From Lachnospiraceae bacterium (GTDB taxonomy: Bacteria; Bacillota; Clostridia; Lachnospirales; Lachnospiraceae), in contig JAFQLS010000018.1 in NCBI GenBank assembly GCA_017396555.1, positions 1 to 33,888 of the forward strand: a DNA stretch of 33,888 nucleotides, given 5' to 3'. The number at the start of each line of letters is the position of its first letter. The stretch's first letter is position 1. Under the pieces are notes generated by a model that did not search any database, was not told the DNA's origin, and saw only the letters and a list, made by a program, of their open reading frames with translations. Position numbers and translations under genes: made by a program. Positions 206 to 24,025 of the stretch are shown in pieces.

Positions 206-3200
206 TTATAATTTCACAGTCTTTTTACCTGACCATTGGGAATAAAATGTTCCTACGCCCTTTACCTTTTTATAAGACTGTATCTGGACCTTATATGTTT
301 TTCTTTTAGTTAATTTTTTTATAAGCTTTGATGTTGTCTTACTACTTTTTATCGTATATGTTTTATACACTTTATTTCTTATAATAAGACGTATTCTATA
401 ACCGGTCACCTTTGAATTTTTCTTCCAGCTACATTTTATTGCTGTCTTACCAGACTTTTTCACACTCTTTAACGAACAAGTCGATAATCTTACTATTGTC
501 GCATCTTTTCCATTAGTTGAAAGTGTAATTCCTTTTACAGCACGCACTCTATATTTATATACGATTCCATTATTTTTCTTAATAGCTTTATCTGTATATG
601 TTATTTTTGAACCACCTTTAATAGTCGCAATCTTCTTCCAAGAACCTTTTCCGTTATTCTTACGATATATAATATATCCGGTAGCACCTGAAACCTTATT
701 CCAATTTAACTGTATTCCTGCTGAAATATTTGTAGTTTTTAAAGTTTTTGGTGCTGAAATATATGTAACATCGGGAACACTCGGTTTTTCCGTTTTTTTA
801 TCGTCGTCATTATCATTATCGTTATTGGTGTTATTACCGGTGTCATTTTCTTCTTCATTTTTGTTATTATTATCATCCGTATCTTTTTTGTTTACAACAA
901 TAGAACAGCTTGTTGTCAAACAACTTCCATCATATGTTCTTGCTGTAATTATAGTACTGCCGGTTCCAATAACTGTCACCACTCCATTATCATCTGCAAC
1001 GGCAACATTTACATTAGAGGACTCCCAAAGCACATCTTTGTATGTTGCATCTATTGGCAATATATTAACATCCAAATCATATTTCTTTCCAATAATATCT
1101 GTTTCCAATTGTGATACAGAATTTTCATTTAAAACAATTTCAATATTTTCAGCTAAAATCGGCGAAACAAACACACAACAATCATCACTCAGATTGCTTC
1201 CATCCTTTGTTGTTGCTGTTATAAATGCATAACCAATACCAACTGTAGTTACCACACCAGCTTCATTAACAGTGGCAACCTCTGTATTATCACTTGTCCA
1301 AATCACTTCCTTAATTGAAGTATTCTCAGGATAAATATCCACATCCAAATCGAATGTCTTACCTGTTCCATATATATCCCTTACTGCAATACTATTTCCA
1401 TCCTCAGTTATCTCTATACTTTGTGCAGGTATAGGATTAACCTTAACACTACATGATGCACTTAAATCGCTTCCATCCCTTGTTGTTGCTGTTATAACAG
1501 CTGTTCCTACACCTGTTGCTGTTACTTTTCCCTTCGAATCCACAGTTGCAACCAATGAATTATCAGTGTTCCAATCCACATTCAAATCCGTTACATTTAC
1601 AGGTGATATCGAAGCATATAATTGCATACTTTCACCATCAGTCAATGTAATGCTTGTCTTATTTAATTCTATCGAATTTGCTTTCACATCTTCAATAGCG
1701 GTTGTTCGTTCATTTGTAAATGCCTTGATTCTGGCATTTCTACCGGAAGCATACGATGTATTTGTAGGATTTAAATCCTGCAACGTATCAATACTGTTTC
1801 CGGCATAGCTTTCACCTGACTTTGCATATGAATGAAATTCAACCCAACTGTACGACTGCGACTCATCCACTGCAAGTCCTACATATTCGCCAGATTTCTT
1901 TAATGTTATTACTACAGCATATCTTTCTCCTTCTGATACATGTACTTTTTCATTTAATTTCACCGTATGATAGCCTATATATTCCACCTTACCTGATTGA
2001 GAATATACCAATATACCGGTATTAGGTAGTGCTTTTTCTTCAAGATTTCTATATATGCTAATATCATACTCAACATTTAAATCTGTTGTATAAAATCCAA
2101 CCGCTTCCAATGTTTCATTACTATCTGCAACAAATGCGTTAGCTCCGCATATCTGCCCTGCGCAAGAACCTGAAACATCACCATATAAATATCCACTACC
2201 ATCATATTGATAATTATTGTCATAATTATCACCTTCAACAAAATCAAAAACATATGCTTCCTCTGCAATAGTTTCGTCATAATAAGACAACCAGAAATAT
2301 CCACCTGCACCCCAAGAACTTCCCCAGCTATTCTTTACAAGCCACGCTCCATCGCCTGGTGCATCCTTAGCAAATGAAGTTTTTGAGATATTATCATTCC
2401 AGCCAACTATAGTTACCCCATGATTAGTTCCCAAACTATCATCATCAACATACTGATAACAAGATAAAAAATATTCAGAATCACTTGTTGCGTAATAACT
2501 AATTCCAACCGAACCATAATTATTAACCATCTGTTTTACAACATTCATATCTGCTGAATATGTAGAAGTGGACATATCCGGCATAGCAATAACATATGCA
2601 TTCTGCATATGTGCAGCATCATCATATCCCAGTATAGATTCAGGTGTTTGTCCATTATTTATCTGTGTATCTCCATAAGTACTCTGTGATGCACCGGATG
2701 CCCCCTGCCAATTAGCAAGGACACATAAAGAAATACTATTATGGCCACCCTGCTCTAATATGCTTGTACCTGTTGGGTTAGATAAATAGTCCCCACCAAA
2801 CAAATCAAGTGAATCACCGGCTGCACTATAAGCATAATGCACTAAATGATATTCATTTAAATCCAAAGCGTCTGAGGCAGTTTTCTTATTTATCATATAA
2901 CTACTTTCTGCCATACTCATAGCCGCATGTGCCCAACAGGTACCATACGGACTCTGACTTTTAACAGGAGATGTATGATCTTCTATTTGTTCGACAACAA
3001 TACTCTCAGGTATATTAGCAGACGCACTATAAGAAGATGGAAGAGTTCCTCTGACAGGTAAAAGCTCAGACTTTTCATCTGCAAAACTTTTACTGATATT
3101 TTCTCCCATATCACGATAATTCAAGAGCATACCCTTAGGTATAATTTCAGAGTTCTCATTTACCTGCTCTGCAAAAATAAAAAAATTTGTATTTGTTAAC

Positions 3201-3253
3201 AATAATACTAATGTCAGTATAACGCATAATATCTTTTTTATTATTTTTACCAT
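206..3253 (-). CDS. Secreted papain-like (C1) cysteine protease with Big2 and FN3-like domains
   Basis: This 1015-residue exported peptidase starts with a lysine-rich, hydrophobic signal peptide (about 1-29). The C1 catalytic domain spans roughly 80-340: Q100 of the oxyanion hole, C106 in GTCWAHA, H278 in TNHGVTIVGW and N308 in VKNSWG are all present. A beta-rich region (about 345-515) matches the position of the lectin-like domain that often follows such proteases. Three Big2 immunoglobulin-like repeats follow (about 524-606, 607-697, 698-788), then an Asp/Asn/Glu-rich linker (789-828) and two lysine-rich FN3-like domains to the end. There is no LPXTG motif, so attachment may be through the basic C-terminus, or the protein may be released. 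The start is fixed by the site GGAGAAGG. It is the last gene of the run beginning at 10931. The substrate is unknown; degradation of dietary or host protein, or processing at the cell surface, are options. Confidence 0.93.
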   Translation of the reverse strand: MVKIIKKILCVILTLVLLLTNTNFFIFAEQVNENSEIIPKGMLLNYRDMGENISKSFADEKSELLPVRGTLPSSYSASANIPESIVVEQIEDHTSPVKSQSPYGTCWAHAAMSMAESSYMINKKTASDALDLNEYHLVHYAYSAAGDSLDLFGGDYLSNPTGTSILEQGGHNSISLCVLANWQGASGASQSTYGDTQINNGQTPESILGYDDAAHMQNAYVIAMPDMSTSTYSADMNVVKQMVNNYGSVGISYYATSDSEYFLSCYQYVDDDSLGTNHGVTIVGWNDNISKTSFAKDAPGDGAWLVKNSWGSSWGAGGYFWLSYYDETIAEEAYVFDFVEGDNYDNNYQYDGSGYLYGDVSGSCAGQICGANAFVADSNETLEAVGFYTTDLNVEYDISIYRNLEEKALPNTGILVYSQSGKVEYIGYHTVKLNEKVHVSEGERYAVVITLKKSGEYVGLAVDESQSYSWVEFHSYAKSGESYAGNSIDTLQDLNPTNTSYASGRNARIKAFTNERTTAIEDVKANSIELNKTSITLTDGESMQLYASISPVNVTDLNVDWNTDNSLVATVDSKGKVTATGVGTAVITATTRDGSDLSASCSVKVNPIPAQSIEITEDGNSIAVRDIYGTGKTFDLDVDIYPENTSIKEVIWTSDNTEVATVNEAGVVTTVGIGYAFITATTKDGSNLSDDCCVFVSPILAENIEIVLNENSVSQLETDIIGKKYDLDVNILPIDATYKDVLWESSNVNVAVADDNGVVTVIGTGSTIITARTYDGSCLTTSCSIVVNKKDTDDNNNKNEEENDTGNNTNNDNDNDDDKKTEKPSVPDVTYISAPKTLKTTNISAGIQLNWNKVSGATGYIIYRKNNGKGSWKKIATIKGGSKITYTDKAIKKNNGIVYKYRVRAVKGITLSTNGKDATIVRLSTCSLKSVKKSGKTAIKCSWKKNSKVTGYRIRLIIRNKVYKTYTIKSSKTTSKLIKKLTKRKTYKVQIQSYKKVKGVGTFYSQWSGKKTVKL
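1196..1497. repeat. Near-identical DNA repeats inside the Big2 domains
   Basis: The 29 bases at 1196-1224 and at 1469-1497 differ at one position. They encode the same segment (around TTxDGS) of Big2 repeats 2 and 1, and a more diverged copy lies near 925-955 in repeat 3. This indicates fairly recent domain duplication within the gene. Confidence 0.75.
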
Positions 3254-4607: not shown

Positions 4608-5220
4608 CCCTATACAGCCTCTCCCTTTCTTCTTCCGTCAGTTTCCTATATTCACCTTCTTGTAGTTTGCAATCAAGTTCTACTTCGCCTATTGCCACTC
4701 TTCTTAGCATAACTACATAACATCCAATCGCTCTAAACATCCTCTTTACCTGATGTTTCTTTCCCTCACTAATAGTTATGCACCCATTTCCAACCATTTG
4801 AAGCAGGGAATTGTGCCCTACTTCTTCACATTCTTCCCGTCTCATAATGTCGCTAAACTCTGAATATTTACCATATCTAATAATCTCTATCTCGCAAGGC
4901 TTAGATATAATTTCTTCACCTCGCCCAATATTAACGCCCTCCCTCAAAGCATCAAGCTTTTCCTTATTAATTTCTCCATACACCCAGAAATAATAGGTTT
5001 TCTTAACATGATGCTTTGGATGCATAAGATACTGGTCAAACTGACCATCATTAGTAAATAATAATAGTCCTGTTGTGTCTTTATCAAGTCTTCCAACCGG
5101 AAATATTTCTTCACGAAGCTCTTCTTCAAAATAATCCATAACTGTCTTATGTACCATATCTTTTCTGGCAGTTATGCAGCCTTTGGGTTTATTAAACATA
5201 TAATATAACAAATCACTCAT
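4597..5220 (-). CDS. rRNA pseudouridine synthase, RsuA/RluB/E/F family, without S4 domain
   Basis: 207 residues. The family signature is clear: the opening strand YYMFNKPKGCITA (6-18), the catalytic loop VGRLDKDTTGLLLFTNDG with Asp46, and the KKTYYFWV and EGKKHQVKRMFRAIG motifs. Most relatives carry an N-terminal S4 RNA-binding domain; here the catalytic domain starts at once, as in RluE-type enzymes. It should convert one uridine in 16S or 23S rRNA to pseudouridine; which position cannot be read from sequence. A short insertion (about 115-145) precedes the EGKKHQVKR motif. It begins two bases after the GH13 gene and overlaps the TPR gene downstream. Confidence 0.92.
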   Translation of the reverse strand: MSDLLYYMFNKPKGCITARKDMVHKTVMDYFEEELREEIFPVGRLDKDTTGLLLFTNDGQFDQYLMHPKHHVKKTYYFWVYGEINKEKLDALREGVNIGRGEEIISKPCEIEIIRYGKYSEFSDIMRREECEEVGHNSLLQMVGNGCITISEGKKHQVKRMFRAIGCYVVMLRRVAIGEVELDCKLQEGEYRKLTEEERERLYRDEV

Positions 5221-5222
5221 AA

Positions 5223-6506
5223 CTATTTTCTCATTATTATAGGAGCAAATTCAAGGTCAATTCTTCCTTCTTCTACCATAACCTCATCACCTGTTATAAG
5301 GTTAGTGTATATTCCATCTTCTATATCAGTCTCTATAAATCCATCCTGTCTCGCAAATGTAAATACACCTATAAGCTTGTCATCATTTCTCTCATAAGTT
5401 CCTATAACTGTATCAAATTCATCATATGCCTTAAGATTATAAGCACCATTAGCAAATATTTCTTCCTTCTTAATCTCATATAATTTGCTCATAAAACCTG
5501 ATATATCCTTACCTGTATTCCAGTCTACCTTGTCATATTCAAAAAGACTTGGACACTTGTCATTAAGCATTTCCTGTCCTGCATAAACAAGAGGTGTTCC
5601 CTTTTCAAAATACATAAATGCAGTATAATTTTTTATAATATGCTCATCATCAATATAACTGCATATTCTTCTTGTGTCATGATTTTCAACACATCTAAGC
5701 TTCACATAATTATTCGGATAAATACAATCCTGTAAATTCAACATTTTCACAAGACTACTCAATGGTGTTTTCTTTTCAAGATAAGCTTCAAAATCTTCTC
5801 TTACATCATATCCATAACAAATATCGAATGCTTCGTACATTTCGCTATCTGTATGCCCAACCATTCCATTATCTCTAAGATATTTTACAAATCCCGGATG
5901 AACACTCTCAGCAAGCCAGATACAATTTTCACGAACCTCTCCCACTTCTTTTCTTGCCTGTTTCCAAAATTCTATAGGTACCTTTGGTGCCACATCACAT
6001 CTAAATCCATCTACTATTTCTGCCCACATTTTAAGTGTATCAATCTGATACCTCCATAGCGCTTTATTTCCATAATCAAGGTCAATAACATCTCCCCAGT
6101 CACCCGCTCTGTTTCCAAATTCTCCTGCTTCGTTTCTGTAAAAATACTCCGGATTATGCTTTACTAACACTGAATCCGGCGAAGTATGATTATATACAAC
6201 ATCAATAATACATTTCATTCCCCTCTTATGTATCTCATCCACAAGTTTCCTAAAATCATCCATTGTTCCATAATACGGATTAACATCCCTGTAATTCTGA
6301 ATTGCATACGGACAGCCAAGGCTTCCTTTTTTCTTTTCAACTCCTATTGGATGAATAGGCATAAACCAAATGATGTCCGTTCCCAGTGCTTTTATTCTGT
6401 CAAGATCAGAAATAACCGCAAGAAATGTACCCTCCTGCGTGTGATTTCTAACATAAACAGAATAAATTACCTGATTTCTTAATGAAATATCTGTATTACC
6501 TGCCAT
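5223..6506 (-). CDS. Cytoplasmic alpha-amylase-family glycosidase (GH13)
   Basis: 427 residues, with no signal peptide and no carbohydrate-binding modules. The four GH13 regions are intact: DVVYNH (102-107), GFRCDVA with nucleophile D171, LAES with acid/base E200, and ENHD with transition-state stabiliser D277. The (beta/alpha)8 barrel fills most of the protein, followed by a short beta C-terminal domain. It should cleave or rearrange alpha-glucosidic bonds in imported maltodextrin or stored glycogen; exact specificity is not evident. GGAGG lies nine bases before the start. The PAP2 stop codon lies one base upstream and the pseudouridine synthase follows two bases after its end, so it is firmly inside the operon although its function differs. 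Confidence 0.92.
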   Translation of the reverse strand: MAGNTDISLRNQVIYSVYVRNHTQEGTFLAVISDLDRIKALGTDIIWFMPIHPIGVEKKKGSLGCPYAIQNYRDVNPYYGTMDDFRKLVDEIHKRGMKCIIDVVYNHTSPDSVLVKHNPEYFYRNEAGEFGNRAGDWGDVIDLDYGNKALWRYQIDTLKMWAEIVDGFRCDVAPKVPIEFWKQARKEVGEVRENCIWLAESVHPGFVKYLRDNGMVGHTDSEMYEAFDICYGYDVREDFEAYLEKKTPLSSLVKMLNLQDCIYPNNYVKLRCVENHDTRRICSYIDDEHIIKNYTAFMYFEKGTPLVYAGQEMLNDKCPSLFEYDKVDWNTGKDISGFMSKLYEIKKEEIFANGAYNLKAYDEFDTVIGTYERNDDKLIGVFTFARQDGFIETDIEDGIYTNLITGDEVMVEEGRIDLEFAPIIMRK

Positions 6507-6507
6507 A

Positions 6508-7056
6508 CTACTTTACCTCCTTGATTTTATTAGCAATTAAATTATAAAGCTTTATTGATAAGAGTGCACTAACTGCTCCCATTATAGCACCTACAATAAC
6601 ATCCGTTGGATAATGAACTCCTACATACAATCTTGAAAACGAAATTAATATACCTAATATCAATGCCGGAATTCCAAAACGCTTTGGTAACTCTTTAAAC
6701 ATTACTATTCCTGCTGCAATTGAACTTCCTGTATGCCCCGAAGGAAATGAAAAATCCGACTGCTTCCCTATCAGATTTTTAAGTCCTTCAACCACCTCAT
6801 ATGGTCTCGTTCTCTGAAATAAATTCTTAAGTATAAGATTATTAAAAATAATAGAGCCTATAAGTGCCATACCAACCATAATTCCAACTTTGCGTGTTTT
6901 CTTGAAGAATAACATAATAACTGCAAATAATATCCAAACAAAGCCTGCATCACCCAAACTTGTTATTATTTTCATTATCACATTCAAAAAATCATTCCTC
7001 AAATATTCTTGTATCCACAATAAAACATTTCCATCTAATTCAATTAACCAATCCAT
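6508..7056 (-). CDS. PAP2-family membrane phosphatase
   Basis: 182 residues with five or six membrane helices. The three-part phosphatase motif is complete: K77-x6-RP (K77 to P85), PSGH (105-108) and SR-x5-H-x3-D (S141, R142, H148, D152). Such proteins hydrolyse lipid phosphates, for example undecaprenyl pyrophosphate or phosphatidylglycerol phosphate, on the outer membrane face. Undecaprenyl-pyrophosphate recycling is the commonest role for a stand-alone bacterial copy, but this is inferred. GGAG stands eight bases ahead of the ATG. It lies 11 bases after the methyltransferase gene. Confidence 0.93.
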   Translation of the reverse strand: MDWLIELDGNVLLWIQEYLRNDFLNVIMKIITSLGDAGFVWILFAVIMLFFKKTRKVGIMVGMALIGSIIFNNLILKNLFQRTRPYEVVEGLKNLIGKQSDFSFPSGHTGSSIAAGIVMFKELPKRFGIPALILGILISFSRLYVGVHYPTDVIVGAIMGAVSALLSIKLYNLIANKIKEVK

Positions 7057-8384: not shown

Positions 8385-10931
8385 TCAATTAATAATCTCT
8401 CTTATCTGATTCTCAATTCTTTCAATTTCTTCTATAAATCCTTTTGCTGATAATCTTGTAGCACCATTTCCCCAAATAATACATTGCTCATGTCCGTCAG
8501 AGGTCGCTACAGTAACTCTATATTTCTTCCCAATTTCGTGCGTAACACGTTCAATGTAGGTGTCTGCCGTTTCAGCCTCTTTAGTATAGACTATATCAAC
8601 ATTGTTAAATCTTAGTATCTCTCCGGGATTTCCACTAACCTTATATGCATCAAATACTATAATTATATTAATTTGTCTATAGCCCTGATAATTAGAAACT
8701 TTTTCTATCAAGGCATCTCTTGCTCCCTGTAAATTAACTTTAGCTATATCCTTTAATTCATCCCATGCAAATATTATATTATATCCATCTATCAACAGAT
8801 ACTCCGGTTTGCTTGAAGACAAATGTGCAACACTATTTTTCTTTACATTAGCAATACTTGTGTTATCTCTTCTTGTCCATTTATTTCTATCTCTTTTAAT
8901 CGCTCCATATGTTCTTTCAAATATTGCTTCCAGCTCTTTTTCATCATAACATGTTGTCTTACAATTGTGAATATTCTTAGCTTCTTTTACCTTATCAGCA
9001 TTATTCTTCTTCAATTGATTTTCAACATGCATATATTCCTTAACCTTATCCCATTTTACCACAAATCCTGCTCCACCGGAACAAAAAATAGAAGAAGCCG
9101 GATCATTTATATCACTTTCAAAATCATAACCCTTTTGTTCTATAATTTCTTCTTCATTATGACATTTTCTATACCCATCTACATTGTAAAAAATCCGCCC
9201 CATACCTTTTGTGTATGCCATGACCTCTCTCTGATATCCATTCATTGTAACAACAGGCGCATACCCTGTAATTACCGTCATATTCCCTTCTGTATACGGT
9301 GTATCAAATTCTCCATACATACGTTGAATATCCGAAATTGCTCTTCCCACATTTTCAGTTGGAATTTCCAGTTTAAAACTATATACAGGCTCTAACAATA
9401 TACTTTTTGCATGTGCCAGTCCATTTCTTACTGCTCTATAAGTTGCCTGTCTGAAATCTCCACCTTCTGTATGTTTTTTATGTGCTCTTCCGGCAATCAG
9501 TTCAAATCTTACATCCGTTATCTGTGAACCGGTTAATACTCCTCTGTGCATTTTTTCTCTTAAATGAGTCATAATAAGTCTTTGCCAGTTCCTATCAAGA
9601 ACATCTTCACTACATGAAGTCTCAATATGAACACCACTTCCTCTTTTTAAAGGTTCAATAACAATATGCACCTCTGCATAATGTTTTAGTGGTTCATAAT
9701 GTCCAACTCCATATGCAGAATCCACAATAGTTTCTTTATACACTACATTTCCCGTATCAAATTCCACACTAATTCCGTATCTTTCCTCTATGACTGATTT
9801 TAGTATCTCAATTTGTATATCACCCATTACCTTGGCATGAATTTCACATAGCTCTTCATCCCATGTAATATTTAGCTCCGGTTCTTCCTCCTCAAGTTCC
9901 TTAAGCTTTGGAAGAATAACATTAACACTTACAGCCTCCGGAATAATTATTCTATAGTTAAGTACCGGTTCAAGCAGTGGTTGTATTTCTCCCGCCTCTA
10001 TTCCAAGACCTTCTCCTGCTCTGGTTTTATCAAGACCTGTTACTGCACACATACCGCCTGCTTCAATACTTGTAACCGTATTATATCCACCACCTGAATA
10101 TATTCTTATCTGATCAACCTTCCCTGCTTCACCAAGCATTTCCTTAACCTTAAGTTCTCCTCCGGTAACCTTTATATATGATAATCTATTCCCATTCTCA
10201 TCTCTTCCAATTTTGTAAACTCTTATGCCAAGCTTGTCAGGATATTCTCTCTCAATAAAATATTTCTCCATTCCCTTAGAAAGTTCTTCAACCCCTTCCT
10301 GCTTCAATGCAGATCCAAAGTAGCAAGGAAAAATCTTTCTGTCATTTATAAGATATGCTATATCCTCTTCACTTGGATTAATACCTTTAAGATACTCGTT
10401 CATAAGTCCCTCATCTGACATTACAATATTTTCAGTAAATTCATCACTATTTATATCAGAAAAATCAACACAATGTTCAGATAAATTCGCTTTAATATTC
10501 TTCATCAACAACTCTTTATCCGTACCTACCTGATCCATTTTATTTACAAAAATAAACACAGGTATCTTATACCTTAAAAGAAGTTTCCACAAGGTAAGGG
10601 TGTGTCCTTGTACACCATCCGAGCCACTTATAACAAGAATTGCGTAATCAAGAATTTGTAATGTTCTCTCCATTTCAGCTGAAAAATCAACATGCCCCGG
10701 TGTATCCACAAGTGTCACCTTAAATTTCCCCATATCAAGAACAGCCTGCTTAGAGTAAATAGTTATTCCTCTTTTTCTCTCAATCAGGTTATTATCAAGC
10801 AATGTATTACCATAATCAACTCTTCCTATATTTCTTATCTGACCATTCAGATATAACAAATTTTCTGATAAAGTTGTTTTACCCGAATCAACATGGGCAA
10901 GAATTCCTAAAGTCAACTTATCTGATATCAT
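8385..10931 (-). CDS. Tet(M)/EF-G-like ribosomal GTPase fused to a Rae1/YacP-type NYN nuclease
   Basis: 848 residues. The first ~640 are a translational GTPase of the ribosomal-protection class: G1 AHVDSGKTT (12-20), G2 RGIT (54-57), G3 DTPGH (76-80), G4 NKMD (130-133), G5 SAL (207-209), then EF-G-like domains II-V. The domain IV loop reads GRAHKKHTEGGDF (about 481-493) rather than the YSPVST loop of Tet(M), so tetracycline resistance is doubtful. After a basic linker (about 640-708), residues 709-848 match the NYN/PIN nuclease YacP (Rae1), which in Bacillus subtilis cuts mRNA in the ribosomal A site. Acidic residues D715 (LLIDGYNII), D761 (VFDAY), D790 (ETADTY) and D812 (ATSDG) are all kept. 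Both halves therefore belong to A-site-acting families. A Shine-Dalgarno-like GGGTG lies eight bases before the ATG. It heads the operon. Confidence 0.92.
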   Translation of the reverse strand: MISDKLTLGILAHVDSGKTTLSENLLYLNGQIRNIGRVDYGNTLLDNNLIERKRGITIYSKQAVLDMGKFKVTLVDTPGHVDFSAEMERTLQILDYAILVISGSDGVQGHTLTLWKLLLRYKIPVFIFVNKMDQVGTDKELLMKNIKANLSEHCVDFSDINSDEFTENIVMSDEGLMNEYLKGINPSEEDIAYLINDRKIFPCYFGSALKQEGVEELSKGMEKYFIEREYPDKLGIRVYKIGRDENGNRLSYIKVTGGELKVKEMLGEAGKVDQIRIYSGGGYNTVTSIEAGGMCAVTGLDKTRAGEGLGIEAGEIQPLLEPVLNYRIIIPEAVSVNVILPKLKELEEEEPELNITWDEELCEIHAKVMGDIQIEILKSVIEERYGISVEFDTGNVVYKETIVDSAYGVGHYEPLKHYAEVHIVIEPLKRGSGVHIETSCSEDVLDRNWQRLIMTHLREKMHRGVLTGSQITDVRFELIAGRAHKKHTEGGDFRQATYRAVRNGLAHAKSILLEPVYSFKLEIPTENVGRAISDIQRMYGEFDTPYTEGNMTVITGYAPVVTMNGYQREVMAYTKGMGRIFYNVDGYRKCHNEEEIIEQKGYDFESDINDPASSIFCSGGAGFVVKWDKVKEYMHVENQLKKNNADKVKEAKNIHNCKTTCYDEKELEAIFERTYGAIKRDRNKWTRRDNTSIANVKKNSVAHLSSSKPEYLLIDGYNIIFAWDELKDIAKVNLQGARDALIEKVSNYQGYRQINIIIVFDAYKVSGNPGEILRFNNVDIVYTKEAETADTYIERVTHEIGKKYRVTVATSDGHEQCIIWGNGATRLSAKGFIEEIERIENQIREIIN

Positions 10932-10961: not shown

Positions 10962-10985
10962 GAGAGTTCCGTTTTCGGAACTCTC
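10962..10985 (-). terminator. Rho-independent terminator or attenuator between kinase and GTPase genes
   Basis: GAGAGTTCC (10962-10970) and GGAACTCTC (10977-10985) form a perfect 9-base-pair stem with a six-base loop. On minus the stem is followed by TTTTGTT. It ends the kinase-like gene 21 bases after its stop. It also lies only 30 bases before the GTPase start codon, leaving no room for a promoter in between. Confidence 0.88.
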
Positions 10986-14685: not shown

Positions 14686-14723
14686 AAAACAAAAAGGTAT
14701 AAGACATTACCATCTTACACCTT
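14686..14723 (-). terminator. Terminator of the fatty-acid operon and MarR gene
   Basis: On minus, AAGGTGTAAGA (14723-14713) pairs with TCTTATACCTT (14704-14694): 11 base pairs including one G-U, loop of eight, then TTTGTTTTT. The left arm overlaps the last codons and stop of the MarR gene. Confidence 0.9.
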
Positions 14724-15170
14724 AATATTCCTAATATCATCAAGCTCCGGCATAAGCTCCTCCGACATTACTCTTAATACTTTTTCAACAGTTTCAATCT
14801 CTTCTTCCGTAAATCTGGATTTTATTCTTTCTGACACCTCATCAATATAGGATGTTGAAAGATTATAATACGACAGATATTTATCCGTTACCTCAAGATG
14901 AAATTCTCTCTTATCGTCCTCTGACTGCACCTTTTTAAGATATCCTTTTTTAATAAGAGAATTAATCTTATATGCTGCATTTGGTGATGAAATGTTAATG
15001 AACGACGCAAACTCGCTAACTGTCGGATTATCCATCGCATATATCGTCTCTATACAAAAAGTCTCAACTGTTGTAAGTGAGGTTTCACGACTTTGAATTT
15101 TCTCAAACAAACTTTTATAAAATTTTAACTTAAACTTCATATACACTTTTACAAACTCTTTATTAAACAT
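14715..15170 (-). CDS. MarR-family regulator, FabT-like
   Basis: 151 residues from the ATG at 15170 (GGTGG five bases upstream); a GTG three codons earlier at 15179 is also possible. A winged-helix domain runs from about 32 to 97: recognition helix around ISSPNAAYKINSLIKKGYL, wing EDDKREFHL. In Firmicutes, MarR regulators within fab clusters are FabT, which represses fatty-acid genes when bound to acyl-ACP. Here the gene comes last after fabZ, not first as in streptococci. It has an internal promoter in the 64-base gap and probably also receives read-through from the operon. Autoregulation and control of acpP are inferred. Confidence 0.88.
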   Translation of the reverse strand: MFNKEFVKVYMKFKLKFYKSLFEKIQSRETSLTTVETFCIETIYAMDNPTVSEFASFINISSPNAAYKINSLIKKGYLKKVQSEDDKREFHLEVTDKYLSYYNLSTSYIDEVSERIKSRFTEEEIETVEKVLRVMSEELMPELDDIRNIKV

Positions 15171-15205
15171 AAAATCCACCCTGCCTTTTAGAAGTCATAA
15201 TTATA

Positions 15206-15243: not shown

Positions 15244-15669
15244 TTATTGAATTGCAAATGTCAATTCAGCATTAACAGCAACTTCACCATCTACTTTTGC
15301 CACTGCGGTTCCAATGCCTACCTGACCTTTTTTATCTACAATCTCACAATATAACTCAAGCACATCACCCGGTACTACCTGTTTACGAAATCTTGCCTTT
15401 TTTATTCCACCAAAGAAAACAATTTTTCCCTTGTTTTCTTCCTCTGCAAGCATTGCAACTGCTCCCGTCTGTGCAAGCGCCTCAATAATAAGAACTCCCG
15501 GCATTACATGTTTTTGCGGAAAATGTCCCATAAACTGCATTTCGTTTGCTGATACACACTTTATACCCTTTGCCCATTTTCCTGGTTCAAAATCAATAAC
15601 CTTATCCACTAAAAGGAATGGATATCTATGTGGTAAAATTTCCTGAATCTGATTAGAATTTAATTCCAT
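15244..15669 (-). CDS. fabZ: 3-hydroxyacyl-ACP dehydratase
   Basis: 141 residues, usual family length, hot-dog fold. Catalytic H49 in [11 protein letters not shown] and E63 in LIIEALAQ are present, as is [14 protein letters not shown] near the start. It removes water from 3-hydroxyacyl-ACP to give trans-2-enoyl-ACP, the substrate of FabK. GGAGA precedes the ATG, 11 bases after fabF. No isomerase (FabM) or FabA accompanies it, so how unsaturated acids are made, if at all, is not shown here. Confidence 0.97.
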
Positions 15670-15680
15670 ATATTTCTCTC

Positions 15681-16910
15681 CTATTGATACTTCTTAACTA
15701 TTATACTTGCATTATGCCCACCAAATCCAAGTGAGTTAGACATTGCATATTCAATCTCTACATTTCTTCCTTCATTAGCTACAATATCAAGGTCACATTC
15801 CTCATCAGGAACACTATAGTTAATTGTAGCAGGGACAAATCCTTCTTTAACTGCTAATGTAGTTATAATAGCTTCAATCGCTCCACTTGCTCCTAACAAA
15901 TGACCTGTCATAGACTTAGTTGAACTCATCATTACACTGTTTGATGCATCTCCAAATGCAAGTTTCACAGCTCTTGTCTCCCCTTTATCATTCATTGGCG
16001 TGGAGGTTCCATGTGCATTTATGTAAGAAATTTTTGACGCTTCTATTCCTGCTTCTTTCATCGCTAATTGCATACATTTGGCTGCACCACTTCCATCTTC
16101 TAATGGTGCTGTTATATGATACGCATCACAATTTGCACCATATCCAACAACTTCACCATATATTTTGGCATTTCTGGCAAGAGCATGTTCAAGTTCCTCA
16201 AGAACAAGAATACCTGCACCCTCTCCCATTACAAAGCCATTTCTTTCTTTATCAAATGGAATAGATGCCCTCATTGGATCCTCACTCTGTGATAAAGCTT
16301 TAAGCGAAGTAAATCCGCCAATACCAGACTCTGTAATACTACTTTCTGTACCACCGCATAACATAACCTCTGCATATCCGTCTTTAATATATCTAAAGCT
16401 ATCACCAACAGCATTTGTACCACCTGCACAAGCTGTTACCACACTGTTACACATACCATGAATACCATGCTCAATAGCTATTCTTCCTGCTGCCATATTA
16501 GAAATAGACGCAGGTATAAAATAAGGTGAAATTCTATCAAATCCTTTTTCACTACCCTTACTATATTCTACCTCTATAGTACCAAGACCACCAATACCAC
16601 TTGATACTATAACACCGCATCTATCTGAATCTGTTTCAAATTTAATACCAGAATCCTCTACAGCCTCCCTTGCCGCAATAAGTGCAAACGCACAAAATTT
16701 ATCCATTTTTCTTAATTCTTTTTTATCTATGTAATCTTCAAAATTAAGATTCTTAACTTCACCGGCAACCTTGACTTTTCTGTTAGATACATCATAATGT
16801 GTAATCTTATCAATACCACATTTTCCTGCCTTAATGCTTTCCCATGTATCACTTACACTATTTCCTATAGGTGTAACTGCACCCATTCCTGTAATTACAA
16901 CTCGTCTCAT
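15681..16910 (-). CDS. fabF: 3-oxoacyl-ACP synthase II
   Basis: 409 residues from the ATG at 16910, which overlaps the fabG stop in ATGA with GGAGG upstream; a start at 16934 would add eight residues not found in the family. The Cys-His-His triad is complete: C161 in [11 protein letters not shown]300 in [12 protein letters not shown]337 in TGHLLGASG. It condenses malonyl-ACP with the growing acyl-ACP. Only one elongating ketosynthase is in the cluster, so it probably serves all chain lengths. Confidence 0.97.
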
Positions 16911-17650
16911 ACTGCCATTCCTCCATCTACACAAATTGTCTGACCTGTTATATAAGAAGCTTCCTTAGATGCCAAAAATGCCACTGCATTCGCAATGTCC
17001 TCAGGCTTTCCTGCTCTCTTTGCAGGAATTGCACTAAGCATTGCTTCCTTTACCTTATCTGATAGAACATCAGTCATATCAGTTTCAATCATTCCCGGTG
17101 CTATTGCATTAACGGTAATATTTCTTGATGCCAATTCCTTTGCAACTGATTTAGTAAGGCCAATAATTCCCGCTTTACTTGCAGCATAATTAGTCTGACC
17201 GGCATTTCCTCTCACACCAATAACACTGCTTATATTGATAATTCTTCCGTATCTCTGCTTCATCATTAATTTTGAAACCACTTTTGTACAGTTAAATGTT
17301 CCCTTAAGATTAATGTTAATTACAGCATCGAAATCCTCTTCAGTCATTGCCATAACAAGCTTATCTCTTGTAATTCCAGCATTATTAACGAGGATATCAA
17401 TATTTCCAAAGGCCTCTGCCGCCTTTTCAACCATACCATTGACTTCTTCTGTATTTGATACATCAGCCTTGTAGATAATAGCATTTACACCATATTTCTT
17501 ACATTCTTCAGCAGTTTCCTTTGCCGCTGCTTCACTTCCTGAATAGTTAACAAGTACATTTGCACCATTTTTTGCAAGTTCAATAGCAATAGCTCTTCCT
17601 ATTCCTCTGCTTGCTCCTGTAACTATAGCTGACTGACCTTTTATATCCAT
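16907..17650 (-). CDS. fabG: 3-oxoacyl-ACP reductase
   Basis: 247 residues, a short-chain dehydrogenase. NADPH motif TGASRGIGRA (11-20), NNAG (89-92), and catalytic S142, Y155 and K159 (ISS, then NYAASKAG) are present. The C-terminus [13 protein letters not shown] is typical of FabG. It reduces 3-oxoacyl-ACP to the 3-hydroxy form. Its stop codon overlaps the start of fabF, suggesting coupled translation. Confidence 0.97.
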   Translation of the reverse strand: MDIKGQSAIVTGASRGIGRAIAIELAKNGANVLVNYSGSEAAAKETAEECKKYGVNAIIYKADVSNTEEVNGMVEKAAEAFGNIDILVNNAGITRDKLVMAMTEEDFDAVININLKGTFNCTKVVSKLMMKQRYGRIINISSVIGVRGNAGQTNYAASKAGIIGLTKSVAKELASRNITVNAIAPGMIETDMTDVLSDKVKEAMLSAIPAKRAGKPEDIANAVAFLASKEASYITGQTICVDGGMAV

Positions 17651-17667
17651 ATTGTCACCATACCTTT

Positions 17668-18606
17668 CTATCTGCCAAACATCTCAATTACTTTATTTAT
17701 ATCTTCTATATTTTCAACAGCATAAGCCGTTATATTGTCAGATGTTCTCTTAACAAATCCGCTCAACGCTTTACCCGGACCAATTTCAATAACCGTATCC
17801 ACACCCTTTGCTTCAAGATATTCTATGGTTTTTTCCATATAAATACTGTTAGCAACCTGTTTAACTAATATATCTTTAATATTTTCATCAGCTTGTAATT
17901 CCTTAGCTGTAGTATTAAACACAACAGGATATTTCATTTCATTAAAATCCATATCTGCAAAATATTTATTAAGCTCCTCTGCTGCCGGATTCATATATTT
18001 AGTATGAAATGGTCCACTTACCTTAAGTGGCATACATCTCTTAGCTCCAGCTTCCTTAGCCTTCTCTTCTGCCTTGGACACAGCTTCATTATCACCACAT
18101 ACTACATACTGACCTTTGCAATTATAGTTAGATACCGCTACATATCCATTTCCTTCATTACAGATTTCTTCGCAAATCTTATCAAGAATCTCACTGTCTA
18201 ATCCCATAACAGCACTCATCTTACACTCTATACCCTTTGCAGCCTCTTCCATGGCATTTCCACGAAATGCAACTAATTTAACAAGTGTTTCCTCATCAAA
18301 TACTTCTGCACAATTAAGCGCGCTGTATTCTCCAAGACTTAGACCGGCTACATATTCAGGCTCTATACTATTTTCTTTAAGAACCTTTGTTACACCAGCT
18401 GCAAACGCTGCCATACATGGCTGAGTAAATTTTGTTTGCGATAAATCTTCCATAGGTCCTTCAAACATCAATTTCTTCAAATCAATATCTACTACTTTCG
18501 AAACCTTATCTATAACATTCTTAAATGTTTCATTATTATCATAAATATCTTTACCCATTCCTACCTTCTGACTTCCCTGTCCTGCGTATAAAAATGCCAG
18601 TTTCAT
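17668..18606 (-). CDS. fabD: Malonyl-CoA:ACP transacylase
   Basis: 312 residues from the ATG at 18606 behind GGAGG; this start matches the family opening KLAFLYAGQGSQ, and a start at 18636 would overlap fabK. Active-site S90 lies in GLSLGEY, R115 in FRGNAMEEA and H201 in GPFHTKYM. It moves malonyl from CoA to the phosphopantetheine of AcpP, linking the carboxylase genes to the elongation enzymes. Confidence 0.96.
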   Translation of the reverse strand: MKLAFLYAGQGSQKVGMGKDIYDNNETFKNVIDKVSKVVDIDLKKLMFEGPMEDLSQTKFTQPCMAAFAAGVTKVLKENSIEPEYVAGLSLGEYSALNCAEVFDEETLVKLVAFRGNAMEEAAKGIECKMSAVMGLDSEILDKICEEICNEGNGYVAVSNYNCKGQYVVCGDNEAVSKAEEKAKEAGAKRCMPLKVSGPFHTKYMNPAAEELNKYFADMDFNEMKYPVVFNTTAKELQADENIKDILVKQVANSIYMEKTIEYLEAKGVDTVIEIGPGKALSGFVKRTSDNITAYAVENIEDINKVIEMFGR

Positions 18607-18625
18607 CTGTAATTCCTCCATTCTG

Positions 18626-19552
18626 TTACATATCAAAATTTGATAATGTTACTTTTGCTCCTGTATACATATCCTCAAATATTTCTGATAAAGTACGAAT
18701 TTCCTTAAGCTGACCTGCTACCTGACCTGCCATAAGCGAACCTGTCTGTGTGTCTCCATCAATTACCGCTCTTCTAAGTGAACCAAGTGTATATTTCTCA
18801 AGTTCCATTTTATCCGCGCCTTCTTTTTCTCTTCTGACATATTCTCTAGCCATCTGATTCTTAAGAATTCTTACTGGTGTTCCGCCAATTCTTCCTGTTA
18901 CAACAGTATCATTATCCTTAGCTTTAATTACTGCATTCTTGTAATTTTCGTGAATTGGACATTCCTTACTGGCAAGCAAACATGTTCCAAGCTGAACGCC
19001 ACTGGCTCCGAGAGCAAATGCAGCAAGAAGCTGTCTTCCGTCCGCAATACCACCTGCTGCAATAACAGGTATATTTAAGTTATCCACCATCTGAGGAATA
19101 AGTGCCATAGTTGTCATTTCACCAACATGACCACCACTTTCAGTTCCCTCTGCTATTATGTAATCAACTCCACCTGCTTCAAGTCTCTTTGCAATTGCCA
19201 CACTTGACATTACAGGCATTACTATAGTTCCGTTTTCTTTCCACTTATTAACGTGCTTTCCAGGATTTCCTGCTCCGGTAGTTACAACCATAATTTTTTC
19301 TCTATATACAAGTTCAGCCATCTCATCCGCCTGAGGATTCATAAGCATAATATTTACACCAAACGGCTTATTTGTAAGCTGTCTACATTTATGTATATTT
19401 TCTTCAAGCATCTCAACTGTCATTCCGCCTGCGCCAATAAGTCCCAAGCCACCTGCATTTGATACCGCAGCAGCAAATTCTCCTGTTGCAATATTTGCCA
19501 TTCCGCCCTGAATAAATGGATATTTAATACCTAAACGTTCATTAATCATCAT
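18626..19552 (-). CDS. fabK: Enoyl-ACP reductase II (FMN-dependent)
   Basis: 308 residues, nitronate monooxygenase/FabK fold. Evidence: PFIQGGMANIATGEFAAAVS near the start, AEGTESGGHVGEMTT in the middle, and the phosphate-binding AAGGIADGRQ and GASGVQLGT motifs. In a fab cluster between fabH and fabD this is FabK, the flavin NAD(P)H reductase that completes each cycle, replacing FabI; no fabI is present. The Shine-Dalgarno site is modest (AGAAAGGT), and the ATG at 19549 is an equal alternative. Confidence 0.93.
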   Translation of the reverse strand: MMINERLGIKYPFIQGGMANIATGEFAAAVSNAGGLGLIGAGGMTVEMLEENIHKCRQLTNKPFGVNIMLMNPQADEMAELVYREKIMVVTTGAGNPGKHVNKWKENGTIVMPVMSSVAIAKRLEAGGVDYIIAEGTESGGHVGEMTTMALIPQMVDNLNIPVIAAGGIADGRQLLAAFALGASGVQLGTCLLASKECPIHENYKNAVIKAKDNDTVVTGRIGGTPVRILKNQMAREYVRREKEGADKMELEKYTLGSLRRAVIDGDTQTGSLMAGQVAGQLKEIRTLSEIFEDMYTGAKVTLSNFDM

Positions 19553-19573
19553 ATTTGTACACTACCTTTCTTA

Positions 19574-20512
19574 TTAACATTCAAGAAGCATTCCACCCCA
19601 GGTGAAACCAGCTCCAAATCCTACCATTATTATCGTTTTACCTTTTGCCAACAAACCTTTTTCATACATTTCATCAATAGCAATCGGTATGCTTGCAGCA
19701 GATGTATTACCATATTGTGACATATTCATGTAGAATTTATCAGTTTCACAATCAAACTGCTTAATAATAGTTTTAATTATTCTTTCATTTGCCTGATGAC
19801 ATATAACATAATCAATATCCTGAATAGTTTTATCTGTTTTTTCAAGCAGTTCATTAATAACATTTCCAACCGTACTGACAGCAAATTTAAAAACCTTTTT
19901 TCCATCCATATCAATATATTGATTTTCCATTGCCTGTCCAGGACATATAAGTGCGGTGGTATTACCATCCGAACCCATAACAGTTGCATAGTTGGCCGTT
20001 ACATTCTTTTCTATCACCGCCGCTCCTGCGCCATCACCAAATAATACACAGGTATTTCGGTCTTCCATATTAAGTCTGGTAGAAATCTGTTCACTTCCAA
20101 TTACAAGAGCATATTTTTCTCCCGAACTATTTAAGATTCCCTCCGCTACATTTAATGCATATAAGAACCCTGTACATGCAGCATTCAAATCAAATGCCAT
20201 TATGTCATTTCTAAGTCCTAATTCCTTCTGCACCAGACATGCCACCGAAGGAAATGCATAGTCCGGTGAAAATGTAGCAACTATTACCATTCCTATTTCA
20301 TTAATATCAATATCACCTTTTTCTATGGCTTTCCTTGCAGATTCTACAGCTAGCTGCCAGTTCATTTCTCCATCACAGAAATATCTTTGCTTAATTCCTG
20401 TTCTGCTGGATATCCATTCATCACTTGTATCTACAATTTTACTCATATCGTCATTTGTCATAACCTTGCCCGGCAATGCTCTTCCTGTAGATACTATTCG
20501 TATTGCACTCAT
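19574..20512 (-). CDS. fabH: 3-oxoacyl-ACP synthase III
   Basis: 312 residues. Catalytic C113 (NAACTGFLYAL), H239 (CHQANERI) and N269 (QYGNTSAASIP) are all present. It starts fatty-acid chains by condensing an acyl-CoA primer with malonyl-ACP; whether acetyl- or branched-chain primers are preferred cannot be read here. GAGGT precedes the ATG, 15 bases after accA. Confidence 0.97.
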   Translation of the reverse strand: MSAIRIVSTGRALPGKVMTNDDMSKIVDTSDEWISSRTGIKQRYFCDGEMNWQLAVESARKAIEKGDIDINEIGMVIVATFSPDYAFPSVACLVQKELGLRNDIMAFDLNAACTGFLYALNVAEGILNSSGEKYALVIGSEQISTRLNMEDRNTCVLFGDGAGAAVIEKNVTANYATVMGSDGNTTALICPGQAMENQYIDMDGKKVFKFAVSTVGNVINELLEKTDKTIQDIDYVICHQANERIIKTIIKQFDCETDKFYMNMSQYGNTSAASIPIAIDEMYEKGLLAKGKTIIMVGFGAGFTWGGMLLEC

Positions 20513-20527
20513 GAAGCTACCTCATTT

Positions 20528-21334
20528 CTATTTTTTTATCATTCCAAATTTTCTATCTATTTTTCTAAATTTCTGGTATCTGTGTTTTGCCAACGCATTT
20601 CCAGACATTCCTATATATCTCTTTAATTCTCTTCTTAAAAATTTATCAATAACTTCATATCCCCTACGTGGATTTGTTTGAATTCCACCCTTTGGCTCAG
20701 GTATTACCCTATCTATAATACCAAATTCCTTAAGTTCTTCTGCTGTCATCTTCATAATTTCACAGGCTTCAGCACTTCTAGCAGAATCCTTCCAAAGTAT
20801 GGACGCAAATCCTTCCGGAGAAAGTATTGAATATACCGCATTTTGAAGCATAACAACTGAATTTGCCACACCAATAGCTAAAGCTCCGCCACTATTCCCT
20901 TCACCTGTAATGATGGCAATAACCGGAGTCTTTAACGAACTCATTTTAGCAATCGACTCGGCTATGGCAATACTTTGACCATTTTCCTCTGCCTGTATAC
21001 CCGGATATGCCCCCGGCGTATCAATAAATGTTATTATTGGTCTGCTAAATTTCTCTGCCTGTTTCATAAGCCTAAGTGCTTTTCTATACCCCTCAGGCTG
21101 AGGCATACCAAAGTTACATCTTACTTTTTCTTCAATATCTCTACCCTTTTTATGACCAATAACTGTTACCGGTATATTGTGAAATAATCCTATTCCTCCA
21201 ATAATACCTGCATCTTCACCACCTAATCTGTCACCCTTTAACTCTACAAAGTCATCAAAAAGTGCTTCTATATAATCATCTATCTTAGGTCTGTTATTAT
21301 CTCTAACAATCTTTACCTTTTCATAAGCTTCCAT
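20528..21334 (-). CDS. accA: Acetyl-CoA carboxylase carboxyltransferase alpha subunit
   Basis: 268 residues from the ATG at 21334 (GGATGG eight bases upstream, family-like opening EAYEKVKIVRDNNRPK); an in-frame ATG at 21346 lies directly against the Shine-Dalgarno site and is less likely. The crotonase-type core shows IDTPGAYPG and GEGNSGGALAIGVAN. With AccD it transfers the carboxyl group from biotin to acetyl-CoA, making malonyl-CoA. The start lies inside the end of accD (14-base overlap), fitting equal subunit production. Confidence 0.96.
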   Translation of the reverse strand: MEAYEKVKIVRDNNRPKIDDYIEALFDDFVELKGDRLGGEDAGIIGGIGLFHNIPVTVIGHKKGRDIEEKVRCNFGMPQPEGYRKALRLMKQAEKFSRPIITFIDTPGAYPGIQAEENGQSIAIAESIAKMSSLKTPVIAIITGEGNSGGALAIGVANSVVMLQNAVYSILSPEGFASILWKDSARSAEACEIMKMTAEELKEFGIIDRVIPEPKGGIQTNPRRGYEVIDKFLRRELKRYIGMSGNALAKHRYQKFRKIDRKFGMIKK

Positions 21335-22205
21335 TACTATTTCCATCCTTTTTATGCAAACCTAATAATGTTCCTATTACATCTTTTAATTCTTCTCTTT
21401 GGACAATTCTATCTACAAAACCATGTTTCTCCTGAAATTCCGAACGTTGAAACCCATTTGGTAATTTTTCCTTTATAGTCTGTTCTATTACTCTTGGTCC
21501 TGCAAATCCTATTAATGCTTGTGGCTCAGCCAAAATAATATCTCCAAGCATTGCAAAGCTTGCACTTACACCACCCATAGTCGGATGTGTAAGAACTGAT
21601 ATAAATAGTCCGCCTTTTTCTGAAAACTTCTCTATTACCGCGCTCGTCTTAGCCATCTGCATAAGAGAAAACATTCCTTCCTGCATTCTTGCACCACCGC
21701 TGGCACTTACTGCCACAACCGGAAGATTATTTTTCATTGCATATTCTACTGCAAGCGTAAATTTCTCTCCCACCACTGTTCCCATACTTCCCATCATAAA
21801 TTTTCCGTCAAGAACAATTATCTCTGCCTTATATCCATTTATCTTACCAACACCGGTAATAATCGCATCATTATTTCCAGTTCTTTCCCTGCCTGCCTTT
21901 AGCTTATTTTCATATTCCGGAAACCCAATAGGATTTCCGGAACTTAAATTTGCTTTCTGCTCCTGAAATGTAGAATAATCTACTAACTGTACTACTCGTC
22001 TTCTAGCAGATATAGGCAAGTGGTAATTGCAGTTTGGGCACACGTATAATTTGCTTTTTAACAAAGCCCTGTTATATTCATTTTTACATGATGGACATTC
22101 AATATCCTTATGCTTTTCTTCCTTCTTATTGCCAGATATTTTTTCACTTCTAAGTTCTTTAAGACTTGTCAAATGATTTCTTCTGGCACCAAACAAATTA
22201 TTCAT
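21321..22205 (-). CDS. accD: Acetyl-CoA carboxylase carboxyltransferase beta subunit
   Basis: 294 residues. The N-terminal zinc ribbon is intact (C37, C40, C56, C59), followed by the carboxyltransferase core with SASGGARMQEG and GGVSASFAMLGD. It pairs with AccA. Its ATG shares one base with the accC stop (TAATG), so translation is likely coupled. The first ~30 residues are lysine-rich and poorly conserved. Confidence 0.97.
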   Translation of the reverse strand: MNNLFGARRNHLTSLKELRSEKISGNKKEEKHKDIECPSCKNEYNRALLKSKLYVCPNCNYHLPISARRRVVQLVDYSTFQEQKANLSSGNPIGFPEYENKLKAGRERTGNNDAIITGVGKINGYKAEIIVLDGKFMMGSMGTVVGEKFTLAVEYAMKNNLPVVAVSASGGARMQEGMFSLMQMAKTSAVIEKFSEKGGLFISVLTHPTMGGVSASFAMLGDIILAEPQALIGFAGPRVIEQTIKEKLPNGFQRSEFQEKHGFVDRIVQREELKDVIGTLLGLHKKDGNSNGSL

Positions 22206-23584
22206 TATTTGTTTTCTCCATTCTCAATATTCCACTCCAACAATTCTTCCATATGTTCTTCTAAAAAACCGGTATTATATTTTCCCATAATATATTCCGG
22301 GTGATACATTATGATATACTGAAAGGCTTCATTTGTTATTACGCCTTCTATGATAAATTCTTCAATAGCACACCGCATTTTTCTAATAGCTTCTAATCTG
22401 TTAGGTGCGTGAACTATGATTTTAGCAACCATCGAATCATAAAAAGGACTTATCTCATATCCCGAATATGCTGCTGTTTCAACCCTCACACCATTCCCCG
22501 CCGGCAAATGCAAAAAACCAATCTTACCGGGCGAAGGCTTAAATCCCTCCCTTGGATTCTCTGCATTTATTCTACACTCAATTGCATGACCTTTTAACAC
22601 AACATCTTCCTGTTTTACGCTAAGCTTAAGTCCTGCAGCTATTCTTATCTGTTCCTTCAATAGATCAATTCCGCTTACCATCTCTGTTACCGGATGTTCA
22701 ACCTGAATTCTTGTATTCATTTCAATAAAATAAAAGTTTTCATTGTCATCTAATACAAATTCTATTGTTCCGGCACTATAATAACCTGCTGCCTTTGCTG
22801 CTCTGACTGCGGCATCACCCATTTTCTTTCTGAGCTTTTCCGACAAAACCTTTGAAGGGGATTCTTCTATCATTTTCTGATTTCTTCGCTGAATAGAACA
22901 ATCTCTTTCACCTATATGAATTATATTTCCAAACTTATCACCTAAAATCTGAAACTCAATATGATGAGGCTTTAGGATAAGTTTTTCAATATACATATCA
23001 CCATTTCCGAATGCTGACTCTGCTTCAGCTTTGGCGGTATTAAATGCATTTTCTATTTCTTCTCGTGAAAATGCCTTTCTCATACCTCTTCCACCACCAC
23101 CTGCAGATGCCTTAATTAAAACCGGATATCCAATTTCATCAGCTATTCTTTTGGCTTCTTTTGAATCCTTTACCAAATCCCTTGAACCTGGTACCACCGG
23201 AACCTTATGTTCCATCATAAGCTTTCTTGCTGACTGCTTATCACCCATATTCTCAATAATTTCTGCACTGGGACCAATGAAAACTAATCCGTTTTCTTCA
23301 CATTTTCTTGCAAAATCTGCATTTTCTGATAAGAATCCATAACCCGGATGTACAGCTTCACATTCTGTCTTTAAGGCGATATCAACTATAATGTCTTTAT
23401 TAAGATAACTCTTAGCCGCATTGGCAGGACCTATACATATAGGATATGTAGCAAGCTGTACGGGCAAAGAGTCTTTGTCAGGTGTAGAATATACAAGAAC
23501 TGTCTCAATCTCCATTTCTCTACAGCATCTCAATATTCTTAATGCAATTTCACCTCTGTTAGCTATAAGAATCCTTTTAAACAT
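22205..23584 (-). CDS. accC: Acetyl-CoA carboxylase, biotin carboxylase subunit
   Basis: 459 residues, ATP-grasp fold. N-terminal FKRILIANRGEIALRI, ATP loop KASAGGGGRGMR (158-169), HHIEFQILGD, ERDCSIQRRNQK and catalytic FIEMNTRIQVEHPVTE (E288, N290, R292) are all present. It carboxylates the biotin on AccB using bicarbonate and ATP. It begins three bases after accB. Confidence 0.97.
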   Translation of the reverse strand: MFKRILIANRGEIALRILRCCREMEIETVLVYSTPDKDSLPVQLATYPICIGPANAAKSYLNKDIIVDIALKTECEAVHPGYGFLSENADFARKCEENGLVFIGPSAEIIENMGDKQSARKLMMEHKVPVVPGSRDLVKDSKEAKRIADEIGYPVLIKASAGGGGRGMRKAFSREEIENAFNTAKAEAESAFGNGDMYIEKLILKPHHIEFQILGDKFGNIIHIGERDCSIQRRNQKMIEESPSKVLSEKLRKKMGDAAVRAAKAAGYYSAGTIEFVLDDNENFYFIEMNTRIQVEHPVTEMVSGIDLLKEQIRIAAGLKLSVKQEDVVLKGHAIECRINAENPREGFKPSPGKIGFLHLPAGNGVRVETAAYSGYEISPFYDSMVAKIIVHAPNRLEAIRKMRCAIEEFIIEGVITNEAFQYIIMYHPEYIMGKYNTGFLEEHMEELLEWNIENGENK

Positions 23585-23587
23585 TAA

Positions 23588-24007: not shown

Positions 24008-24025
24008 TAACTGTCTCCTCACGAA

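Follow-up and report, generated by a model that had tools for sequence, protein, structure and literature searches.

A GTPase fused to a Rae1-like nuclease seems to stand in for free-standing Rae1 in many Clostridia

A 33,888-nucleotide contig from a Lachnospiraceae bacterium (GenBank assembly GCA_017396555.1, contig JAFQLS010000018.1; hereafter ‘the window’) carries one reverse-strand gene for an 848-residue protein that joins a GTPase resembling elongation factor G (EF-G) and the tetracycline ribosomal protection (Tet) proteins to a NYN nuclease domain of the YacP/Rae1 type, with both parts intact. From the comparisons presented here, this fusion seems to stand in for free Rae1. We favor, with modest confidence, the view that it is the Rae1 of this lineage, having replaced the free form, and that its recruitment to ribosomes is led by the built-in GTPase. 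The architecture itself is already known: the passage on these proteins in Atkinson 2015 (PMC4342817; BMC Genomics 16:78) describes ten Clostridiales species whose Tet proteins have gained a YacP-like NYN RNase domain, and suggests a possible new resistance mechanism. An earlier note on this DNA knew of no characterized example; the architecture, at least, is on record. The window protein fits the published description (a Tet-like GTPase with a C-terminal YacP-like NYN domain), and agrees with it in both architecture and taxonomic group. Whereas that description is brief and is framed in terms of possible antibiotic resistance, our analysis adds a near-exclusion of free rae1, a frequency among sampled genomes and the failure of the window protein to reach Tet criteria. 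No functional test of the fusion was found in the open-licence literature.

The distribution of the two forms was evaluated in 293 genomes of the class, the window's own genome included. A match to the NYN_YacP profile is present in 192 of these genomes, and exceeds the cut-off in 191. The architecture that the earlier note proposed to look for across Clostridia is common, being found in 104 of the 293 genomes, 99 times as an open frame of more than 600 residues and five times cut by a contig end or split between frames. Another 87 genomes carry only the free-standing gene (frames of 160–342 residues), one holds a 27-residue fragment, and 101 have neither form. The fusion and free rae1 occur together in a single genome (G284); second NYN_YacP matches in three other genomes lie below the cut-off, at ~21 bits. 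This mutual exclusion corresponds to a Fisher p of 1e-19 in the whole set and of 3e-6 within the 24 fusion-holding families, where both values ignore kinship and the family tally was made by hand, with six match-less genomes for which no family was shown. In five families (f1, f21, f22, f26 and f45) the members without the fusion carry the free gene, and in the window's own family, 12 of the 13 genomes sampled carry the fusion, with a single NYN match in each. The nearest named relatives of the window protein are mostly from Clostridia. One genome (G190, locus L046) has the fusion gene in two frames, likely a broken or misassembled copy, and three named records (L116, L128 and L171) hold a GTPase frame without nuclease, which may reflect true loss, a frame error or a contig effect.

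The usual site of the free gene was also inspected. In 35 of 42 free-rae1 loci, rae1 sits between rlmB and sigH, and the order in relatives is cysS-mrnC-rlmB-rae1-sigH; no NCBIfam model matched the second of these genes, which we take to be mrnC from its place in the gene order. Twenty fusion genomes were examined at their best RlmB locus. In 12 of these rlmB and sigH are consecutive; 11 of the 12 have no rae1 between the two genes, and only G284 has it there. The genome of the window (locus L182) has 10 nucleotides from the rlmB stop codon to the sigH ATG, with no rae1 between, and its RlmB and SigH proteins both exceed an NCBIfam cut-off. Because the two forms exclude one another and rae1 is absent from its usual place, the fusion seems to have replaced it. 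G284, which carries both a fusion (L049) and a free rae1 at the usual place (L072), is a natural intermediate.

The nuclease half is clearly of the Rae1 type, as evident by an NYN_YacP score of 161.4 bits against a cut-off of 24.6, and by a structural match to Bacillus subtilis Rae1/YacP (PDB 5MQ8 and 5MQ9) with 41–42% identity over the matched part. Residues D715, N718, D761, D790, S811 and D812 are identical in all 95 full-length fused proteins aligned, 20 of which derive from the class scan (window included) and 75 from named records. The four acidic nuclease residues singled out by the earlier note are therefore invariant, and they lie within the Rae1 fold. The reading frame is also intact across residues ~640–708, where a break had been considered, and the Pfam domains bear out the proposed two-part protein, including a G domain (GTP_EFTU, residues 5–223) that retains its G motifs.

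Although the fold and the acidic residues are shared with B. subtilis Rae1, the latter is a small separate protein whose gene adjoins rlmB (yacO), whereas the window nuclease is fused, is encoded elsewhere in the genome, is shortened and lacks the terminal R-R motif. The C-terminus of the fused domain is eroded. From a G-A-x-R-x-S-A motif to the end there are 54–57 residues in free Rae1 proteins (24 of 42 with the pattern), 24–82 in fused proteins (81 of 95) and 26 in the window protein. A C-terminal L-R-R motif, searched as a strict pattern, is found in 31 of 42 free Rae1 proteins and in none of the 95 fused ones. By our mapping, R166 of B. subtilis Rae1 falls in this motif, and the portion of PMC6613710 that treats mutations in yacO and rae1 includes R166P among those its authors term loss of function. 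The motif may dock free Rae1 to ribosomes, and the GTPase may have taken over this docking in the fusion.

The GTPase half has the multidomain build of EF-G, as judged by its Pfam domains and by a structural match with EF-G and TetM on the ribosome. It resembles Tet(M) and Tet(O) in this build and in overall shape, but differs from them in its low identity (28% to Tet(M) in the alignment, and 25% to EF-G of the same genome), in its domain IV loop, in its profile scores and in carrying an added extension and a nuclease. With the NCBIfam model tet_protect, the protein reaches 428.8 bits where the cut-off is 775, and the other Tet models give 240.2 against 1420 for Tet(M), 278.4 against 1425 for Tet(Q) and 296.1 against 900 for Otr(A). 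By the model criteria available, the window protein is not a Tet ribosomal protection protein. The drug-displacing loop III sequence of Tet(M) domain IV is absent (GRAHKKHTEGGDF in place of GLYYSPVSTPADF); the portion of PMC4750697 bearing on this loop indicates that certain changes are tolerated in Tet(M), so the difference alone cannot exclude Tet activity. A loop of similar kind is present in 20 unfused and 20 fused relatives, two divergent members of the fused set (L037 and L039) differing in part. Since the HKKHTEGGDF loop thus marks the whole subfamily, fused or not, it is uninformative about the nuclease. Within this loop, H484 aligns without gaps with a histidine of EF-G that we take to lie at the tip of domain IV. 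The earlier interpretation therefore survives with regard to the two halves, the conserved residues, the loss of the Tet(M) loop and the sub-cut-off Tet scores, and fails where it tied the loop to the nuclease; the architecture is also not new. Its proposal of GTP-driven entry into stalled ribosomes, with cutting of the message there, would face the steric difficulty discussed below, and its suggestion that this is no drug-resistance gene agrees with the model scores.

A role in resistance, as raised in the passage of Atkinson 2015 on these proteins, would have the GTPase eject tetracycline or another A-site drug while the nuclease clears stalled messages. TetO and TetM are indeed the nearest solved structures by sequence (E ~7e-71), tet_protect remains the best NCBIfam model despite the shortfall in score, and public records name relatives as members of the TetM/TetW/TetO/TetS family. 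Expression signals could be taken in the same direction. Terminator-like hairpins lie within 90 nucleotides upstream of 12 of 94 fused genes, compared with 10 of 484 control frames and one of 20 unfused genes (this cleaner control supersedes a looser first set, 28/269 vs 21/93), which is a hint of transcription attenuation and a possible sign that such attenuation responds to a drug. The strong hairpin of the window ends so close to the start codon that little room is left for a promoter, and Rfam yields no match above gathering score in the window. Set against this reading are the low scores, the limited identity to Tet(M), the loop that is not retained, and the near-constant presence of the gene in the window's family with one NYN match per genome. 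Its mobility is also unlike that of a widely spread resistance gene, as the best 30 plasmid records for a domain IV–V query comprise three from Clostridia and 27 from Ligilactobacillus salivarius, UCC118 included. From these sequence comparisons, we consider drug resistance unlikely as the role of the fusion. A defence-system role was dropped, as no PADLOC model matches the fusion protein. Among phage records, two unannotated faecal contigs exceed 50% identity.

Phylogenetic trees were used to examine the history of the two halves. In a quick tree of the GTPase, built from 32 of the 95 fused proteins and 21 unfused ones, the fused rows fall into a single group (SH-aLRT 80), which also contains an unfused copy from a L. 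salivarius plasmid (L173); the remaining 20 unfused rows fall outside, and Tet(M) and EF-G are distant. L173 is likely a later loss of the nuclease, judging from its placement. This copy (4968–6902), the only L. salivarius one inspected, adjoins rpsN (S14), and its domain IV loop has diverged. Unfused members of the subfamily, from Clostridia and in L173, share the loop (diverged in L173) and the C-terminal extension with the fusion, but have neither linker nor nuclease; the retrieved sequences of unfused relatives stop at that extension (residues ~593–636) or shortly past it. For the nuclease, a tree of 45 of the 95 fused domains and 42 free ones places 44 of the 45 in a group (support 93/99) together with three free Rae1 proteins (L019, L073 and L074), which come from the window's own order and, in one case, its own family. 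The unconstrained tree requires four changes for the origin of the fused domain, and one clade for the fused domains is compatible with the data (p 0.376). Given the three free proteins among the fused domains, both a single origin and later fission are possible; the simplest account would be that a Rae1 was joined, once, to a GTPase that already existed, and that the free gene was lost afterwards.

How the two halves might cooperate is suggested by known relatives. Within the A site, GTPases of the Tet type overlap with the sites of EF-G and tetracycline, and their release apparently requires GTP hydrolysis (PMC8161019). For its part, a B. subtilis member of the Rae1 branch is reported, in the portions of PMC10100781 and PMC6613710 concerned with it, to act on ribosome-bound mRNA. 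The fusion GTPase would bind ribosomes with a free A site, where the tip of domain IV would probe the decoding center, and would leave or retract on GTP hydrolysis. Held by its tether, the nuclease would have a very high local concentration, and could then cut the message either at the mRNA entry side or in the A site once this is empty. Docking, which in free Rae1 may fall to the C-terminal motif, would be the task of the GTPase. Cutting would yield a truncated message, and the ribosome on it would pass to rescue. We infer A-site cutting by the fused nuclease. A stronger version, in which the protein is a self-delivering endonuclease that sets, through its own hydrolysis of GTP, the moment at which tethered Rae1 enters the just-vacated A site, and that has taken the place of a freely diffusing nuclease in roughly one third of sampled Clostridia, is offered only tentatively and may well prove wrong.

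Several observations weigh against replacement of Rae1 by a fusion that acts in this manner. Domain IV and the nuclease cannot both fill the A site, and domain IV would occupy it first, so that sequential action or action at the mRNA entry must be assumed. Since the nuclease also hangs on a linker of low model confidence (predicted local distance difference test of 31–56 in ten-residue blocks), the two parts would have to take turns or work at separate places. Linkers are 59–168 residues long. The 26-residue nuclease tail of the window protein could signify altered or weaker activity. Loss of the C-terminal motif is less clear-cut with looser patterns, which match 8–16 of the 95 fused proteins (37–39 of 42 free ones), although the fused matches printed mostly lie in an earlier helix or read R-L-G, and one free Rae1 (L019) itself lacks the second arginine, having R-L for R-R. 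The 101 genomes with neither form indicate that loss of rae1 needs no fusion to explain it. Among the 11 fusion genomes without rae1 at the usual site, one (G022) has a 584-nucleotide gap between rlmB and sigH, and in the other eight of the 20 inspected, rlmB is elsewhere or the stretch ends too early to judge. Finally, free rae1 is present in 13 of 20 genomes with an unfused GTPase and in 74 of 169 others, a co-occurrence that is not significant (p 0.10), and a prior partnership is therefore not demonstrated. An origin from former operon partners was dropped on this ground and because no NYN match lies in the DNA retrieved with the 20 unfused GTPases as their surroundings.

It is also conceivable that the GTPase has a task of its own, for instance to move or split stalled ribosomes, while the nuclease merely rides along with its activity uncoupled. 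The unfused GTPase does occur in 20 of the 293 genomes (in G203 only as a 293-residue frame), seven of them without any Rae1 match, the L. salivarius copy lies inside the fused group yet has no nuclease, and the linker is mostly of low confidence. Strict conservation of the nuclease residues argues otherwise, as does disappearance of the C-terminal motif of free Rae1, as if recruitment now depended on the GTPase, and we regard an uncoupled nuclease as quite improbable.

The genes near the fusion bear on one further explanation, namely that the GTPase recognizes ribosomes that are damaged or not yet mature, with rRNA then nicked or trimmed by the nuclease, making the protein a factor for ribosome assembly or for rRNA or tRNA processing. 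An RsmF-type rRNA methyltransferase gene is next after the fusion gene in the window, and NYN_YacP proteins have been proposed, in a statement quoted in PMC4342817, to serve in rRNA and tRNA maturation. An RsmF relative recurs near only one of 20 other fusion loci (L036) and near none of 80 named loci, the latter with flanks of up to 5 kb, and the nuclease belongs to the Rae1 branch, with its reported action on ribosomal mRNA. A function in assembly or processing thus appears improbable, and an operon logic built on RsmF or other rRNA-modifying neighbors was dropped because the neighborhood is not conserved.

Features of the gene are collected in Table 1. Elsewhere on the reverse strand, the window encodes a papain-like peptidase with Lectin_like, Big_2 and fn3 domains (206–3253), likely a surface protein, and a fatty-acid synthesis cluster identified by Pfam matches (15244–24022) with FabA-like, ketoacyl synthase, short-chain reductase, acyl transferase, NMO/FabK-like and KAS III proteins, acetyl-CoA carboxylase subunits and a biotin carrier. 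A MarR-type regulator gene (14715–15179) adjoins this cluster.

Table 1. Positions in the window of the fusion gene, its parts and the upstream hairpin.
Feature	Position	Strand	Remarks
GTPase-NYN fusion gene	8385..10931	(-)	848 residues
G domain (GTP_EFTU, residues 5-223), G motifs retained	10263..10919	(-)	Pfam
EFG_III (residues 321-390)	9762..9971	(-)	25.5 bits, slightly below the Pfam cut-off of 27 bits
EFG_IV (residues 394-508), domain reaching the A site in EF-G/Tet proteins	9408..9752	(-)	Pfam
Domain IV loop GRAHKKHTEGGDF (residues 481-493)	9453..9491	(-)	signature of the entire GTPase subfamily, fused or unfused
EFG_C (residues 511-592)	9156..9401	(-)	Pfam
Subfamily C-terminal extension (residues ~593-636)	9024..9155	(-)	alignment with unfused relatives
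Linker (residues ~637-709)	8805..9023	(-)	model mostly of low confidence; predicted helices 640-652 and 664-675
NYN/Rae1 nuclease domain (residues 710-848), D715 D761 D790 D812	8388..8804	(-)	profile, alignment and structure
Terminator-like hairpin, lead only	10962..10985	(-)	ends 30 nucleotides before the fusion start codon

These results bear on surveys of resistance genes, because some public records label relatives as TetM/TetW/TetO/TetS-family tetracycline resistance proteins while the window protein fails Tet criteria; a 933-residue relative from Agathobacter rectalis is annotated in this way, as are 25 of the 27 L. salivarius plasmid records listed, including that of UCC118. If the fusion is indeed the Rae1 of its lineage, then a gene common among Clostridia would couple inspection of the ribosome to destruction of the message in one polypeptide, and the switch between free and fused forms would constitute a natural experiment on the route by which Rae1 reaches its site. 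Should the GTP-timed version also hold, we would be dealing with a translation factor that inspects a message and destroys it.
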